Shown here: positions 1 to 19,850 of the stretch, piece after piece
How the letters are laid out: each line of letters starts with the position of its first letter
Numbering within the stretch: the stretch's first letter is position 1
Virus record (IMG/VR): IMGVR_UViG_3300046009_008277
Span: 1 to 20,174 of that record
DNA from: a virus
DNA: 20,174 nt
Direction: 5' to 3' (one strand)
Notes under the pieces: model-generated
What the model was told of the DNA's origin: nothing
The model's database searches: none
Seen by the model: only the letters and a program-made list of their open reading frames with translations
Program-made: the position numbers and the translations under genes

Positions 1-3000
1 GGAAGAACCAGTTACTCCTAATGCGCCCTGAATACCCGTAGATCCTGTTGTACCTTGAATACCTGTAGTACCTTGAAGACCCTGAGAACCTGTAGCTCCT
101 TGTGTACCCGTTTGCCCAGTTGTTCCTTGTAAGCCAGTCTGCCCGGTTGTACCTTGAGAGCCTGTAGTTCCCTGAAGACCTCTTGTCCCTTGTAATCCTT
201 GAGAGCCCGTAGTTCCTTGGCTTCCTGTATTACCTGTTGAACCTGTAGTTCCTTGTGTGCCTTGAGATCCAACAACTCCTACTGAACCTTGGGCTCCTGT
301 TGAGCCTGTAGTTCCTTGAATTCCTATTGTACCCTGCGTGCCTTGACTTCCTGTATTTCCAGTAAAACCTTGAAGACCTATTGTTCCAGTAGAACCTTGA
401 GATCCCGTTGAGCCAGTAGATCCTTGTAATCCTGTATTACCAGTAGAGCCTTGTGCTCCTACGGAACCTGCGAAACCCTGTACACCTGTTGAACCTGTTG
501 TTCCTTGAGATCCTGTTGCTCCTGTAAAGCCCTGGGTACCTTGTATACCTGTAGCTCCTTGTATACCTGTTGTGCCTTGTGGGCCTTGGATACCCTGTAT
601 ACCCTGGTTACCTTGAGAACCTGTAAAACCTACTGTGCCTTGTCTTCCTTGTACACCTTGAACTCCTTGTATACCATGATCTCCTGTAAATCCTTGGAGA
701 CCTCTCGTACCCTGAGTTCCCTGAGTTCCTTGAGTTCCTTGAGAGCCGATTGTGCCTTGGGTGCCCTGAGTTCCTTGAGGGCCAATTGCACCTTGTATTC
801 CTAAAAATCCTTGAATTCCTGTTGTACCTTGAATTCCTTGAGCTGCAAAAGCTCCGTTTAATCCTTGCAGACCTTGCAGACCTTGAGTTCCTTGAGCTCC
901 TTGGGCTCCATCTCCTCCTATTATTCCGTCCGAACCTTTTAGGCCTTGTGTACCCTGTATACCTTGAGCAGCAAAAGCTCCATCTAATCCTTGTGTACCT
1001 TGTGGACCCGTAGCCCCTTGAGTACCTATATTACCTTGAATACCCGTATTTCCTTGAGTACCTTGTCTTCCTTGTATACCTTGTGTGCCCTGCGCCCCCG
1101 TATTTCCCGTTGTTCCTTGAAGTCCTTGAGTACCTTGAGAGCCTGTTGAGCCTTGAATTCCTGTTGTACCTTGAGTTCCGGTTGTACCCTGTATACCCTG
1201 AGAGCCTGTGTTACCTACCGTACCTTGTACACCTTGCGAACCTTGTATACCCGTAGTACCTTGTAAACCCTGTAGTCCTTGGGTACCTGTCTGACCTACT
1301 GAACCTTGTATACCTACAAAACCTTGTGTGCCCTGAGAACCTGTAAATCCTATAGTACCCTGTGTTCCAGTAGAACCAGTAGAGCCAGTTGCGCCTGTTG
1401 TGCCTTGTGAGCCTTGAATACCTGTTTGCCCAGTTGTACCTTGAGATCCATTTAAACCAGAAGAACCTGTTATTCCTTGGGGTCCAGTTGAGCCTATCGT
1501 TCCTTGGCTTCCTGTATTACCTGTTGTTCCTTGTGTTCCTGTAGATCCGATGGCACCCTGTGTACCCGTTTGTCCAGTAGTTCCTTGAGAACCTGTTGTA
1601 CCTTGAATTCCGTTGGAACCTGCGGTACCTTGGCTTCCTGTTTGACCCGTGGTGCCTTGGGTACCTTGAGTTCCTGTTGTTCCTTGAGAACCGATTGTGC
1701 CTTGGATACCTCTTGTTCCTTGTAACCCCTGAGCTCCTGTAGTTCCTTGTAAACCCGTTTGTCCAGTTGTTCCTTGAGTACCTGTATTTCCAGTTGTTCC
1801 TTGAGAGCCTGTAGAACCGATAGAACCTTGAGTACCAACTTGACCTGTAGTACCCTGAATTCCAGTTGTACCTTGTGTTCCGTTGGAACCAGCTGTTCCC
1901 TGAATACCTTGAGCTCCAATAGAGCCTTGAGTTCCTTGAGTACCTAAACTGCCTTGAATACCTGATGCACCCTGTGTTCCAGTTGTACCCTGTATACCCT
2001 GAGCCCCGATTGTACCCTGTAAACCCGTTTGTCCAGTTGTACCTTGAGTACCTGTATTTCCAGTTGTTCCTTGTGTTCCTGTGGATCCGATGGCACCCTG
2101 TGTACCAACCTGCCCTGTTGTACCTTGCGTACCCGTAGCTCCTTGTGTTCCGTTAGAACCAGCTGTACCTTGAGTACCTTGTGCTCCAATAGAGCCTTGA
2201 GTACCCTGTGTTCCCAATGAACCTTGAATACCAGATGCACCTTGTATTCCGGTAGTACCTTGAATACCCTGCGGACCTGTTGTGCCTTGACTTCCTGTCT
2301 GTCCAATCGTTCCTTGGCTTCCTGTATTTCCAGTAGTTCCTTGAGTTCCCGTAGATCCAATCGAACCTTGAGTACCTGTTTGTCCAGTCGTACCCTGAGT
2401 TCCTATTGCACCTTGTGTTCCATTAGATCCAGCTGTACCCTGTGTGCCCTGAGAGCCATTTGTTCCTGAAGTGCCTTGACTGCCTGTTGTACCCTGAGTT
2501 CCAGTAGCGCCCTGAGTTCCTGTTGAACCTTGAGTTCCTGTTGAACCTTGAGCTCCGGTAGTACCCTGAGCACCAACTGCTCCTTGAAGACCATTAGCGC
2601 CCTGTGTTCCAGTTGCACCTTGAATACCCTGTGGACCAATAGGTCCTATAAATCCCTGGAGCCCCGTTGTTCCTTGAGAACCATCTATACCAGAAGTGCC
2701 TTGTGTCCCGTTAACTCCTTGAGAACCTGTTACACCTTGAGTACCTTGTGGTCCTGTAGAACCTTGGGTTCCTAAAAATCCCTGAATACCTGTTGTACCT
2801 TGAATTCCTTGTGGACCTATCCCACCTTGCAATCCTATTTGGCCAGTTGTACCTTGGCTACCTGTATTTCCTGTTGCTCCTTGTATACCTGTTGAACCTA
2901 TAGCCCCTTGAGCACCTGTTAGCCCTAATGACCCAGTTGCTCCTTGTACACCGTCTGATCCAGATGCTCCTTGAGGACCTGAAGTTCCTTGAAGTCCGTT

Positions 3001-3828
3001 TTGACCAGCTGTTCCTTGAAGTCCGTTTTGACCCGCAGAACCTTGTGCTCCATTTAAACCTGAAGCGCCTTGAGTACCTGTGGTTCCTTGTAAGCCTTGT
3101 GGCCCAGTTGTTCCTAATATACCCTGTGAACCCGTTTGTCCAGTTGCTCCTTGTATACCTGTTGGTCCCGTTGGTCCGAAGGGACCAGTTGCCCCTTGAG
3201 GCCCTGTTGATCCAGTTGCTCCAATAACACCCTGAGACCCTGTAGATCCTGTTGTACCCTGAGACCCTGTAGATCCTGTTGAACCAGTTGTTCCTTGTAA
3301 TCCTATGTGACCTGTAGCTCCTTGAATACCTGTAGGGCCTGTTGGTCCTGTTAAACCTATACTACCTTGAGGTCCTGTTAAGCCTGTAGGTCCTATAGGT
3401 CCTTGTGAGCCTGTAGCTCCTGTTGCACCCGTTGTACCTTGGGCTCCCGCAGGTCCTAATGGACCTGTAGCTCCTACAGAACCTTGAGCTCCTGTAGCAC
3501 CAGATATGCCGATAGAGCCCTGTGCCCCTTGCGCTCCAGGTGTACCTGCCGTACCTTGTATACCTAAGCTTCCTTGTATTCCAGTAGGACCTTGAATGCC
3601 TGTTGGTCCTACTGTACCTTGAGTGCCTTGAGAACCTGTACCTGCATTACCTATATAAGTATTTGAAGTGTCATCCCAAACGTATACGTTACCTGTAGAT
3701 TGGTCAACATTAAGCACCTTCTGTTCTCCTGGGATAGGAAAGTCAGACATATCCACATAATATCGTGTTTTATCACAACATTCTGGATCTATTAGAATAT
3801 TCTTGCAGTTAGAAAGTACTCCTGACAT
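1..3828 (-). CDS. Giant collagen-like virion protein, C-terminus beyond window
   Basis: The gene starts at the ATG at 3828 and stays open for 1276 codons to the left edge, where it is cut. Residues 1-64 are a non-collagen head containing ECCDK and a [11 protein letters not shown] segment like those that precede repeats in phage fibres. From about residue 65 the protein is an almost unbroken Gly-X-Y repeat dominated by [12 protein letters not shown] and GST triplets. Charged residues are very rare (about a dozen), and proline lies mainly in the N-terminal third. Such repeats form collagen-type triple helices, so a long trimeric fibre or appendage on the virion is likely; the host target is unknown. 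In two places (about 842-860 and 963-981) a Gly is replaced by Ala in the form GAF-AAQ, keeping the register. Bases 1480-2470 hold a 270-nt higher-order repeat. I checked the reading frame line by line in the left quarter and at both repeat regions and saw no break. It is last in a run of appendage genes, 55 nt after the previous stop. Confidence 0.9.
1480..2470 (-). repeat. 270-nt (90-aa) higher-order tandem repeat, about 3.7 copies
   Basis: Within the collagen-like gene, segments beginning at 1501, 1771, 2041 and 2311 align column by column with an exact spacing of 270 nt, that is 30 Gly-X-Y triplets. Each copy carries the same order of triplets, including a Ser-Asn-Gly interruption of the GTQ pattern and a GQTG element (cccgtttgtccagt at 1754, again at 2024). 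Copies differ mostly at third codon positions and at X/Y residues. The pattern indicates segmental duplication above the basic 9-nt periodicity. Confidence 0.85.
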
Positions 3829-3883: not shown

Positions 3884-5509
3884 TTAGAGAGGTGGACCTG
3901 CGTGATATACTACATTAGAGTATACATCACAACAACCGGGTCTTCCTGATATTTCAACCCTGTAGTATCCTGGGTCTGTTATTGATAATAGCCCTATTGG
4001 GCTTGGCTGCGGGTCTAAGTCCACCCAAGACCCTTCCCCATATACTTGCCATCTAACAGTAGCTGCCTCTAAGTTACACTCTGTAAATAACAAAGCATTA
4101 TTTGTAGGAGATTCTGCTGACTCGGTTAGAACTACACTTGCCCAACAACAACAAGCTAGACTTGCTCCAACTCCTTGAATACCTTGAATTCCTTGGAGTC
4201 CAGTTGCACCTGTATAACCCTGAAGACCTTGTGCGCCTGTGGCACCTGTAGCTCCTTGTGCTGCTGCCTCCCCTGATGTACCTTGTGCCCCAACGGGCCC
4301 TGTTGCACCTGGAGGGCCTTGAATACCTTGAATACCCTGGGCTGCAAATAATCCGTTTAGACCTTGCAATCCTTGTATACCCTGTGTACCCTGTACAGTG
4401 GTAATATCTTGAAGTGCGAAATAAGGTGCTCCATCTGAACCTAAGGTAAGAGCATTACCTTCGTCTTGTGATATTTTATATACGCAGCCACAAGCCCATC
4501 TGCTCCATGAAGACCCACCCCATGTCCAAACAGAAGTTGCATTTGCGTGATAGATTACAATCGTATCTCCTTTTTCTTCGTCATATCCTACTGGTAGTTG
4601 AGAAACTACATCTGCTGGAAGGTCTGTTGTTAAACACGGACAATCTTCGTCCGCCGGGGAACAATTAGATTCAGAGCAGAAAAAGAATGTTCTTGTATCT
4701 ATTTCTTCATCGCAGTCTACTGGTTCACCACTTGTAGTTACTCCATCTCCGTTCTTAAGAACTCTCCAACAATACTCGGAAAGAGATAGAGCTGGGTACT
4801 GTGCAGACAATGTTACTATCTGTTGAGGAGATAGTGCAGAGTATGGTACTGTTTCGATTGTGTGGTCAAAAATATTTTTGTTGTCGAGTTGTGGGTAAAT
4901 CGTAAAATCTACGCCGCAGGATTTTGTAAATGTATCTACTCCTACAATACACTCGATATCGTACTTACCTGTAATTGGTAGTGTTGGGTCTATTGGAGTA
5001 AATCCTGCTTCTCCTGTATTTTCATCCCAATATTGCTTTACGCCGTTTACGACTGAGGCTTCATCTAATACCCATTTTGTTGTTCCGAAGGTACATGGTG
5101 TGTCATTCGCCGCCACGTTTAAACAAAGACAAGATGTGAAGTCATCTATTCCGCCCGCGTCAGGCGCACAGTTTGATTGTGTTGCTGTAAGAGTCTTTGT
5201 ATTATCGGATAAGTTGGGGTCGTTAAGTGTGCCGTTTGTAGTGTACGTAATTGAGAACGGGCCCTCTGATACATCTGTAACAGTTACCCAAAGCTTCAAA
5301 GATGTAGTACTTTTGCCGGGCATAGAAGGAATAGTCCAAGTAAGTGTACCTGAATTGAAAGTTCCTTGTGTTTTTTCTACGTGGTCAAAAGTTAATCCTG
5401 CTGGAAGACCCCCCGTAATAACAGTTACTATATTTGTGTCCGTATAAGAAGATAGGTTGGAAACTACAATGTTGTAGTAAAATTTATCTCCGTTTTGATT
5501 ATATTGCAT
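3884..5509 (-). CDS. Multidomain appendage protein: DUF11-like domain, Cys-rich middle, collagen stretch, C-terminal beta domain
   Basis: This 541-aa protein has four parts. Residues 1-112 look like a DUF11 beta-sandwich, with a VVSNLSSYTDTNIVTV strand, GGLPAGLTF, a TLTWTIPSMPG turn and a closing DPNLSDNTKTLTAT. Residues about 113-370 are Cys-rich (SCLCL, FFFCSESNC, EDCPCL, CGC). Residues about 371-450 are a Gly-X-Y collagen-like stretch rich in GIQ, GLQ and GAT, with Ala replacing Gly at LFAAQG and EAAAQG. Residues about 451-541 begin with ACCCW and form a compact beta-rich end with a GYYRVEISG strand like an Ig or bacterial adhesin domain. No signal peptide is visible, as expected for a phage virion protein. 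It shares the [12 protein letters not shown] module with the larger collagen-like gene next to it. A role as fibre or head/tail appendage is inferred from composition and position; the exact virion location cannot be told. Confidence 0.8.
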   Translation of the reverse strand: MQYNQNGDKFYYNIVVSNLSSYTDTNIVTVITGGLPAGLTFDHVEKTQGTFNSGTLTWTIPSMPGKSTTSLKLWVTVTDVSEGPFSITYTTNGTLNDPNLSDNTKTLTATQSNCAPDAGGIDDFTSCLCLNVAANDTPCTFGTTKWVLDEASVVNGVKQYWDENTGEAGFTPIDPTLPITGKYDIECIVGVDTFTKSCGVDFTIYPQLDNKNIFDHTIETVPYSALSPQQIVTLSAQYPALSLSEYCWRVLKNGDGVTTSGEPVDCDEEIDTRTFFFCSESNCSPADEDCPCLTTDLPADVVSQLPVGYDEEKGDTIVIYHANATSVWTWGGSSWSRWACGCVYKISQDEGNALTLGSDGAPYFALQDITTVQGTQGIQGLQGLNGLFAAQGIQGIQGPPGATGPVGAQGTSGEAAAQGATGATGAQGLQGYTGATGLQGIQGIQGVGASLACCCWASVVLTESAESPTNNALLFTECNLEAATVRWQVYGEGSWVDLDPQPSPIGLLSITDPGYYRVEISGRPGCCDVYSNVVYHAGPPL

Positions 5510-16337: not shown

Positions 16338-19300
16338 TTACACGGTCTCTAAAAACTTTGAACGCTTTTTAATTCCGTAATCAATTTGTGAATATTTAGA
16401 ATATTTGCTCTTGTTTATATCCTCGAAATCATCTACAATTTCTATACTCTCGTCGCTTATTTCTAATAATAGAGGCATTAAAAGCATGGCAGATGACATG
16501 TGGTCGAATTCTGTTTTTCTTTCCATTTTAAAGTTTATTGCTTCATCTAATAATCTTAGGGAGTACATAGATTGAAATCTAAACTTTATTGGTGTACCAT
16601 CTTCATCTTCCATTATTGGGTCTCTTAACCATTCCCCCAACTTTGTTATATTCCATTTGTTTATTGCATCATCTGTTCTTATACCTTTCCGCCCCGAATA
16701 TTTTACAGGCTGTCTTCTTACTTCTGTAAGTACTCTCGTAGGCTCGTTTAACAAAAGATGATAATATCCTTTTGACTCACACCACTCTGAAAAACCAGGA
16801 ACGTTTCTTTCTACAAGTATCTTAGCATTGTAGTATAAAGCTGCTCTGATTATTTCTTCGTAGTTCTGTTCTAGTTTTGGTTTACGTCCGATAAACTCTG
16901 CGATAAATGTTTCTTGTAAAGATTTATTTCCGCCCGTGAATCTATGTTTGTAAACTAACGCTGAGTGTAATGAAGTACCTTCACCTCCTTGCGCCGCGGG
17001 GTCATATAAGATATAGTATAAATTATCAGGTCTATTTTCCATCACATCCTCATACATAATCCAAGCCCCTTCCCGGTTATGTAATTCTTTATCTTTCCCC
17101 CAATCGTTAATTGGATACATTTTCTGTTCTACATCCCGCCGCCAGGAAACTTTCGCTACAGCTGTAGGGTCCCACCTAAAAGTACCAATAGAAGAACGAT
17201 GCTTCCAAATATCAGTCATCATAAGTACTCCTCTATGCTCTGTCATTTCGATAACAGGAAGAACACTCTTGCTTGACGGACGAAGCATTTCCCTTGGATA
17301 AAGAGGGTTGAATGCAACAAATTCCCAAAATGAAGTAGAATCCGAATTTTCAAATTCTCTTTCACGTTGATCTATTACATCCCCTAATGCCTGCTCGTAT
17401 ATTGTATTTCCGTTCTCATCCTTAAATTCTTCTGATTGTAAACATGCAGATAAAAATAAACCTGTACTACCTGCCCTGTTTTTGTCGAAGTAATTAGGAA
17501 GTGCATATATTTCAAAACCATCAGGAGACTCAAACATTTCTTTGGAATCCTGAATTGCTTCCATATCACCCCCGGTACCCAAATATATGGCTTTACCTAT
17601 CTTCTTCTTACCTACTCGAAGGGAGTTTCTAAATGCACTTCTTACTCTCTTGACATAAGATAAAAACCCCACCTCTTCTATGATAATCATTGCCATCCTA
17701 TCTCCCGCAAGAGATGTAATTGCATCAGGGGTAATTACAGAAAGTTGCATTACGTTTCCTGATATTGCAATTGTATTATCTGTGTTAGGTACTTTGTGTT
17801 CTACTTTTGTTCCTACATCCCATGTACCTACTATTGACTTGTATAGGAAGCCAAATACTTTATCTTCTTTTCCTTTATCGTCCACGCCGTAAGTATAGTT
17901 ACCAGGCATAGAGTTGTAGAACCTTTTTACTATTGACATGGATCTTTCTAATTGATCCTTTCTTACTGAACCCGCCGCGAATAACTTTTGTGTTGAACCA
18001 TCTTTAATAAAATCCTGCACACTCTTTGCACCGTTAGTTAACCACTCGTGCATGAAATTACCCCCAAATGTAAAAAACGAATTGTGAGTAACAATAAAAT
18101 CTTTTGTAATATATGTACGATCTTCATTATCAACTGCTATACAAACACCATCGTGATTATCTATCTTCTCTATACCTATAATACCAACTCTTTCAAATCT
18201 ACCTGCACCAACTTTGCCTTTAGGTTTTTGAGATGTATGTAAACTATGTTTTCTTTCTAGATTAAAAATTTTTTGGGTAGTCTTTAAGCTAACTTTATAA
18301 CATATCTTTTTTTCAACTCCATAAAGCTTTGCTTGTTTTTTAAAAATAGTTGTGTATATTCCTAAAGATCTCGATAGTTCTACAAAATCGTCAACAACAT
18401 TTTTATTTGAGTTGGAAAACACTGCATGCCTAGAACTTGCTGTACCATCTGAATCCATTAGACCTCTCAAAAGTTCAAGTCTTTGTTCTATGCTCGATTC
18501 TAAATAAATTCTCGGTATGTGTTTATTATTTAACAGATTTAATTCTATAAACTTATCTAATAAAGTTCTATCTTCTCTCTTGCAAAATCTACCTTTTGTT
18601 ATATGATAAGATGATGCTTTATTATCTGGTTTAGTAGAGACTGTAACTTTATGTTTCCACTCTTCTGCTATTTTGTAACAGTAATCCCTAATCTCTTCGT
18701 CCTCAGTTGTAATTTCTGGTCTATGAGAATGGCCATCTCCAATCCACAAACCTAAAAAATATGGGTCTATTGGCAAATCTTTTTCAGAGTATTCGATAGG
18801 ACTATTTAATGGTAAAAAATATTTAGACTCTATAATTCTTTTTATTTCACCATGTCTTTTTTTATATTTTGAATCTATCCTATCGTATACAGGATTTTCA
18901 AAAATATCTTTTGTAGATAGTACAGAATAGTGGTTCTTCTCTCCTTTCCTATTTAAGTTTTTATCCCATACTTTCCAAAGGTGGTCTTCACAAGAATCTA
19001 TTTCTCTACCGTCCCTCAACTTTATTTTATACATGTTGAGGTTTTTTTGTATACCTGTTGTTTGAGTTACATTACAAAGTTTTCCATCTGATCCGTATAC
19101 TCTATCTCCTACTTTAATATTCTTTATCTTTTCCCACCCATATTGTGTTAAAACAAGTTCATCTGGTTTTAGAGCTTTGGCCGCCGCGCGGCATGCCAGA
19201 ATCATCTCGTCACTTTTGTTATTTTCGTACAAAGCACTGCCTAATGGCTTGTCTGCTTTATGCGTAATAAGATAGTGTTCTGTTAAGTATTCCCACGCAG

Positions 19301-19850
19301 GGATAAACTTCTTATATGTTCCGTCTTCTCTTAATATTGCAGTTGAAGAATCTAATATCTTTTTTTCAAATTCCTTTATCTCATCAGGATTCTTATCTCC
19401 TTGTTCTTTCTGTCTTTGTATTTTCTCTATCTTTCCCACTAGTTCGTGGCATGTATATTCTTCATCTAATTCAAAGCCTGAGAATCCTTCTGCACATAAG
19501 TCGTAGTATGACATTATCCACTCGTTGTCTCTAAGCCGCGGCGGAATCTTCTTTCTATCTTCGTCAACTATAATCATATAATTGATATAGAAGTCTAATT
19601 TCGGCGGCATAAAAACCCAAGTATCTACATCATATATCCACCTGCCTTCTAAATAATTCTTTAATCTTTCGCCCCAGTAAAGTTCATACTCAAAAGATTC
19701 AGGAGATATATTTATAGGATGATTCCTGTCGTAGAATAATTCTCTGTTCTGTATTTTATACGGAAAAAGATCTACAGCAAAATCACCGTTAGATGCTTCT
19801 ATTATCCTATTAACACTCCCATCTTGATTAAATTTTGTCCTTGCTTTCAT
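16338..19850 (-). CDS. terL: Terminase large subunit interrupted by an intein
   Basis: The 1170-aa product becomes about 805 aa after removal of a 365-aa intein (residues 226-590). TerL is the packaging motor: an N-terminal ATPase pumps DNA through the portal and a C-terminal RNase H-like nuclease cuts the concatemer. Visible motifs: a Walker A-like CRAAAK-S loop (220-225 plus Ser591), split between Lys and Ser by the intein; Walker B AMIIIEEV at 720-727 with the Glu pair; nuclease acids at D950 (YILYDPAAQ), E1014 (ILVERN) and D1116 (FDHMSSAM). The start at 19850 overlaps the stop of the upstream gene (ATGA), pointing to translational coupling. Portal follows after 10 nt. The Walker A loop lacks the usual second Gly (AAKS rather than GKS), a deviation seen in some phage terminases. 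Activity should depend on splicing, as the loop is not continuous before it. Confidence 0.95.
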   Translation of the reverse strand: MKARTKFNQDGSVNRIIEASNGDFAVDLFPYKIQNRELFYDRNHPINISPESFEYELYWGERLKNYLEGRWIYDVDTWVFMPPKLDFYINYMIIVDEDRKKIPPRLRDNEWIMSYYDLCAEGFSGFELDEEYTCHELVGKIEKIQRQKEQGDKNPDEIKEFEKKILDSSTAILREDGTYKKFIPAWEYLTEHYLITHKADKPLGSALYENNKSDEMILACRAAAKALKPDELVLTQYGWEKIKNIKVGDRVYGSDGKLCNVTQTTGIQKNLNMYKIKLRDGREIDSCEDHLWKVWDKNLNRKGEKNHYSVLSTKDIFENPVYDRIDSKYKKRHGEIKRIIESKYFLPLNSPIEYSEKDLPIDPYFLGLWIGDGHSHRPEITTEDEEIRDYCYKIAEEWKHKVTVSTKPDNKASSYHITKGRFCKREDRTLLDKFIELNLLNNKHIPRIYLESSIEQRLELLRGLMDSDGTASSRHAVFSNSNKNVVDDFVELSRSLGIYTTIFKKQAKLYGVEKKICYKVSLKTTQKIFNLERKHSLHTSQKPKGKVGAGRFERVGIIGIEKIDNHDGVCIAVDNEDRTYITKDFIVTHNSFFTFGGNFMHEWLTNGAKSVQDFIKDGSTQKLFAAGSVRKDQLERSMSIVKRFYNSMPGNYTYGVDDKGKEDKVFGFLYKSIVGTWDVGTKVEHKVPNTDNTIAISGNVMQLSVITPDAITSLAGDRMAMIIIEEVGFLSYVKRVRSAFRNSLRVGKKKIGKAIYLGTGGDMEAIQDSKEMFESPDGFEIYALPNYFDKNRAGSTGLFLSACLQSEEFKDENGNTIYEQALGDVIDQREREFENSDSTSFWEFVAFNPLYPREMLRPSSKSVLPVIEMTEHRGVLMMTDIWKHRSSIGTFRWDPTAVAKVSWRRDVEQKMYPINDWGKDKELHNREGAWIMYEDVMENRPDNLYYILYDPAAQGGEGTSLHSALVYKHRFTGGNKSLQETFIAEFIGRKPKLEQNYEEIIRAALYYNAKILVERNVPGFSEWCESKGYYHLLLNEPTRVLTEVRRQPVKYSGRKGIRTDDAINKWNITKLGEWLRDPIMEDEDGTPIKFRFQSMYSLRLLDEAINFKMERKTEFDHMSSAMLLMPLLLEISDESIEIVDDFEDINKSKYSKYSQIDYGIKKRSKFLETV
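18081..19175 (-). mobile_element. Intein with LAGLIDADG endonuclease in the terL P-loop, class 3 signature
   Basis: The 365-aa element begins at Ala226 of the host protein (ALKPDELVLT, splicing block A) and ends at VTHN before Ser591. Intein numbering gives Ala1; CEDH-L-W with His65 and Trp67 in block B; endonuclease motifs LGLWIGDG near 141-148 (Asp147) and LLRGLMDSDG near 235-244 (Asp241, Asp243); Cys345 in block F (DGVCIAV); and Thr363-His364-Asn365 in block G. Trp at B:12, Cys at F:4 and Thr at G:5 are the WCT triplet of class 3 inteins, which lack a nucleophile at position 1 and start splicing from the F:4 Cys. All residues for splicing and for DNA cutting look intact, so it is probably active and mobile. 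Class 3 members in phage terminases and DnaB helicases are known. Confidence 0.93.

Follow-up and report, generated by a model that had tools for sequence, protein, structure and literature searches.

In a phage classed as crAss-like, the TerL gene is interrupted within its Walker A loop by an insert that we read, from its residues, relatives and predicted fold, as a cis-splicing intein of class 3 that is parasitic on this loop and carries a LAGLIDADG homing endonuclease of active appearance (probability about 93%). The gene lies on IMG/VR virus record IMGVR_UViG_3300046009_008277, a 20-kb fragment analysed over its 20,174 bases (hereafter, the window). New here are a natural intein-free TerL allele in a relative, an intein dS less than half that of the extein, a clustering of shared alleles in the flanks of the insertion, and an intein dN/dS of about 0.1.

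An interrupted Walker A loop in a crAss-like TerL

On translation, positions 16338–19850 (minus strand) form a single uninterrupted frame of 1170 aa encoding TerL with its insert. Residues 226–590 constitute a 365-aa intein between Lys225 and Ser591, bordered by ...LACRAAAK of the N-extein and SFFTFGG... of the C-extein, and the flanks without it sum to 805 aa, the length of the intein-free allele on contig L010. Its block residues read Cys62-Glu-Asp-His65-Leu-Trp67 and Asp-Gly-Val-Cys345. The coordinates and residues given in the original prediction (Ala1, His65, Trp67, Cys345, Thr-His-Asn, and Ser+1) were exact on retranslation (Table 1).

Table 1 Features of the interrupted TerL gene in the window.
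Feature	Position	Strand	Evidence
TerL N-extein, 225 aa, C-terminal ACRAAAK	19176..19850	-	Alignment; phrog_6681 on the intein-free allele
Deviant Walker A, residues 1–7 (ACRAAAK)	19176..19196	-	Aligns with crAss-like TerL ARGGGK and SRGKGK
Intein of class 3 signature, 365 aa, with LAGLIDADG homing endonuclease	18081..19175	-	Residues, Pfam, relatives, model
Intein residue 1, Ala (no nucleophile)	19173..19175	-	
Cys62, B:7 (class 1 counterpart: Thr of TxxH)	18990..18992	-	
Block B His65 (B:10), Leu66, Trp67 (B:12)	18975..18983	-	Residues and relatives
LAGLIDADG motif 1, LGLWIGDG (Asp147)	18732..18755	-	Conservation
Endonuclease block D Lys218 (NKHIP)	18522..18524	-	Conservation
LAGLIDADG motif 2, LLRGLMDSDG (Asp241, Asp243)	18444..18473	-	Conservation; Pfam matches
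Cys345 (F:4), predicted to start splicing as nucleophile and to carry the branch	18141..18143	-	Residues and relatives
Thr363 (G:5)-His364-Asn365, intein C-terminus	18081..18089	-	
+1 Ser (TCG), shared with Walker A	18078..18080	-	Alignment
TerL C-extein, 580 aa, starts SFFTFGG; contains Walker B-like IIIEE	16338..18080	-	

The major capsid protein of the window phage matched PF23898 (E = 2e-30), its portal phrog_6547 (8e-57), and its TerL phrog_6681; hits for these three proteins were to Cellulophaga phage phi14:2, Flavobacterium phages, and gut cr phages. By these markers the phage is assigned to the crAss-like (Crassvirales-like) phages, and since the identities were only 22–28%, it is distant from the named members. 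ACRAAAK/S (slash, insertion point) aligned with the Walker A motifs ARGGGKS in phi14:2 and SRGKGKS in cr85_1, which bears out that the intein splits the P-loop between Lys and Ser and that the +1 Ser doubles as the Walker A Ser. The window Walker A retains this Lys and Ser and is without the usual glycines. Because the intein-free allele L010 reads ACRAVAKS, the missing glycines are a trait of the host protein and not an effect of the intein. The intein-free TerL, searched by sequence against the PDB, had no match. Elsewhere in the window, an open-ended ORF (1–3828, minus strand) encodes at least 1276 aa, 1206 of them in collagen-like Gly-X-Y runs (the longest of 296 triplets), and the ORF at 3884–5509 combines a DUF11 domain with a short collagen stretch.

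Pfam searches with the window intein detected Hom_end (E = 1e-13) and LAGLIDADG_3 (E = 2e-9), and its motifs LGLWIGDG, NKHIP, and LLRGLMDSDG were intact and conserved over 55 sequences. An AlphaFold2 model of the intein (mean pLDDT, 91.6) had PI-SceI as its best PDB match (E = 2e-21), with I-DmoI and gp41-1 lower down. Taken with relatives in several hundred phage records (counted below), these matches lie well outside what chance would give. Two motifs with acidic residues, the block D Lys, and the matching fold of a LAGLIDADG endonuclease are all present, in agreement with the predicted intact homing endonuclease, and the enzyme looks active.

Class 3 signature and nearest relatives

Class 3 inteins are defined by Trp at B:12, Cys at F:4, and Thr at G:5 (PMC3196547). 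All three are present in the window intein as Trp67, Cys345, and Thr363, and the characterised class 3 inteins Msm, Mle, and Bvi have the same His65/Trp67 numbering (PMC5222942). Relatives spanning at least 80% of the window intein occurred in 716 phage records. Among the 85 distinct viral relatives, Trp was found at B:12 in 84/85, Cys at F:4 in 84/84, and THN in 84/84; Lys occupied −1 in 82/84, and +1 was Ser or Thr in all those scored. In the relatives from bacterial genomes, Trp, Cys, and THN were each found in 80/80, with the Thr count biased by the THN-containing motif used to gather this set and the Trp and Cys counts unbiased. The F:4 Cys was invariant across all 164 viral and bacterial relatives scored, and residue 1 was Ala in 63/84 viral and 68/80 bacterial relatives, as it is in the window intein; class 3 requires no nucleophile at this position. 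The junction of Lys with Ser or Thr within the P-loop is the usual insertion site of this group. The signature residues and the uniform Trp-Cys-Thr of close relatives support the class 3 assignment. The accompanying description of class 3 as a small group is outdated: 1701 such inteins were known by 2020, 82.5% of them with LAGLIDADG motifs (PMC7891396).

The bacterial class 3 inteins (L117–L196) came from many phyla, mostly with CxxH and Lys at −1 and apparently in P-loop proteins. Natural departures from the Trp-Cys-Thr triplet were seen in the TerL inteins of Vibrio phages JA-1 (L103) and 1.238.A (L105) and of L072, which have Ala1, the F:4 Cys, and THN but Asn at B:12. Lactococcus phages LW81 (L102) and 949 (L104) form a natural pair at the boundary of class 1 and class 3, their TerL inteins (from locus base 2501) having identical C-terminal regions, the F:4 Cys, THN, and Ile at B:12.

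We also built the kind of block tree that the original prediction proposed as a check, from 102 inteins, including eight class 1 references, with most of the others collected by similarity to the window intein. The references included Ssp DnaB and Mxe GyrA, both checked against PDB chains, as well as Npu DnaE, Mtu RecA, and gp41-1. With all columns, a class 3-like set containing the window intein was split from the class 1 references at 100/87. When the five signature columns were removed, the split disappeared and the alternative was not rejected (AU test, p = 0.25); the reduced tree, having no power, was dropped as independent proof of class. The class assignment therefore rests on the signature residues and the uniform nearest kin. 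Without those columns, seven class 1 references (all but gp41-1) were the least similar to the window intein among 99 sequences, most of the non-reference ones having been chosen for their similarity to it.

The Cys of the CxxH in block B had been called unusual. At B:7, the 85 viral relatives had Asp (40), Cys (23), Ser (13), Gly (5), Asn (3), or His (1), and Cys remained in 15/77 when sequences bearing the Cys-containing search motif were set aside. Among the bacterial relatives, a set in which no sequence has the search motif CEDHLWK, Cys occurred in 53/80. The Cys state required 13 changes on the block tree, and no residue is conserved at B:7 in class 3 inteins (PMC7891396). These results indicate that Cys at B:7 is a common, recurrent class 3 variant, and the census corrects the notion that it is odd. 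Cys62 itself is invariant among the closest relatives of the window intein; as the first nucleophile it was ruled out, since B:7 varies freely whereas the F:4 Cys is invariant.

Intein-free allele and probable sequence exchange at the insertion

Three contigs proved to be close relatives of the window: L2 (L002/L011) and L3 (L003/L012), with the intein, and L010, without it. A wider TerL search by C-extein alignment yielded no contigs beyond these. The L2 and L3 inteins were 90–92% identical to the window intein, and the uninterrupted TerL of L010 was 91% identical to the window TerL. Between the window and L2, dS was 0.51 in the intein (bootstrap range, 0.39–0.64) and 1.20 in the extein (0.85–2.02), ranges that do not overlap, with the caveat that the AT-richness of the intein (GC 0.30; extein, 0.37) could pull its dS down. 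No 365-codon stretch of the extein had a dS below 0.97 in either comparison. Between L2 and L3, the dS values of intein and extein were alike (0.28 and 0.35). The GC content of the intein, below that of its host gene, also favours the reading as a mobile element.

Positions that distinguish the window from L010 then served as diagnostic sites. Where these lie no more than 60 nt from the insertion, L3 had the window allele at 9/18 sites versus 25/365 elsewhere (p = 3e-6) and L2 at 10/18 versus 64/365 (p = 5e-4), in a test of few sites and three other contigs. Away from the insertion, L2 and L3 mostly follow L010; L2 is a mosaic farther downstream. Window-type alleles beside the insertion form a co-conversion-like tract, such as flank co-conversion in homing would leave. 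The dN/dS of the intein was 0.08–0.11 (0.07–0.13 over the splicing and endonuclease parts) and that of the extein about 0.05. Since dN/dS was low across both parts, the function of the intein appears to be kept. The empty allele, the dS gap, and the flank tract, all directly observed, together with dN/dS, suggest that homing was recent and that function has been maintained; the intein is probably mobile.

Predicted splicing and comparison with known inteins

If the window intein follows the chemistry of the characterised class 3 inteins, Cys345 would attack the peptide bond between Lys and Ala1, producing a branched intermediate on block F. Transfer of the N-extein to Ser+1 would come next; Asn365 would then cyclise, and the exteins would be joined into an 805-aa TerL with the ...AAAKS loop restored. 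In unspliced TerL the P-loop would be broken, so that packaging is predicted to wait for splicing. The endonuclease is predicted to cut intein-free TerL alleles during co-infection, by which the element would spread.

In one rival reading, splicing starts from a nucleophile other than Cys345, by a class 1-type or mixed mechanism. This would fit with the class 1 intein gp41-1, which likewise ends in THN and adjoins the class 3 clade in the tree, and with the LW81 and 949 inteins, which are closely similar yet begin with Cys and Ala, respectively, so that the boundary between the classes is porous. However, Ala1 of the window intein cannot be a nucleophile, Trp67 and Thr363 are in place, and the F:4 Cys is invariant among the relatives scored; we consider such a mechanism highly improbable. 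TerL is required for DNA packaging, which counts against a decayed intein that is inactive in splicing, as do two further points: all catalytic residues are retained, and the dN/dS of about 0.1 in the intein stands beside about 0.05 in the extein. We therefore regard decay as extremely unlikely, although one decayed class 3 intein, the Arthrobacter Arth_1007 pseudogene, is known (PMC3196547).

Alternatively, the intein may have been recruited to delay packaging, for example in response to redox state, and not be mainly selfish. Its position in the P-loop and the invariance of Cys62 in its closest relatives are compatible with this, and redox control of the class 3 intein DnaBi1 operates through a disulfide that involves the catalytic Cys (PMC6195587). 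In the window intein, however, Met48 stands where DnaBi1 has its partner Cys48, and the intein-free allele of a close relative and the signs of recent homing also count against recruitment, which we consider very improbable. A version for the CxxH branch of class 3, that Cys62 and Cys345 might be near enough for a reversible disulfide by which redox would gate splicing and hence packaging, is very unlikely.

Read as a class 3 homing element, the window intein has nothing unusual about it: it belongs to a large, known family that occupies the P-loop site in many phages and bacteria. TerL P-loop inteins have been published, with the Lys/Thr junction termed the classic site; among mycobacteriophage terminase inteins, all five that were assayed spliced, and TerL DNA lacking the intein was cut by two (PMC5050341). 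Like the window intein, TerL1-a lies in the TerL ATPase domain, where it separates the invariant Walker A Lys from the Thr, and TerL1-c, -d, and -e are class 3 (Kelley et al. 2016, PMC5050341). These inteins occur in other TerL families and hosts and have about 30% identity to that of the window, whose host TerL differs in having a deviant Walker A. The Msm DnaBi1 class 3 mini-intein (6bs8) has identical His65/Trp67 numbering but lacks an endonuclease, has Asp62 instead of Cys62, and resides in another host protein (PMC6195587). According to the intein passages of Yutin et al. (2021, PMC7886860), TerLs of Delta-group crAss-like phages typically carry an intein, which shares its crAss-like TerL host with the window intein; the example described there is of the 'Hint-Hop' type.

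In the cultured crAss-like Bacteroides phages DAC15 and DAC17, the homologous TerL site (ATRGAGK/SFSC) is likewise occupied by a class 3 intein, whereas the related phage cr126_1 (L199) has an uninterrupted ATRGASKSFSC. The ORF of these phages (L198:3383–6715 in DAC17; host, Bacteroides thetaiotaomicron) is annotated 'hypothetical protein', and the intein passages of three non-subscription papers naming DAC15 contain no description of this intein. It shares Ala1, HLW, the F:4 Cys, THN, and two LAGLIDADG motifs with the window intein but is 35% identical to it, 346 aa long, and has Ser at B:7. Because DAC15 and DAC17 are cultured, the TerL intein can be tested in the laboratory, and these phages offer a system for intein splicing in the packaging motor. 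The empty allele and the conversion-like tract point to movement of class 3 inteins between the TerL alleles of crAss-like phages.
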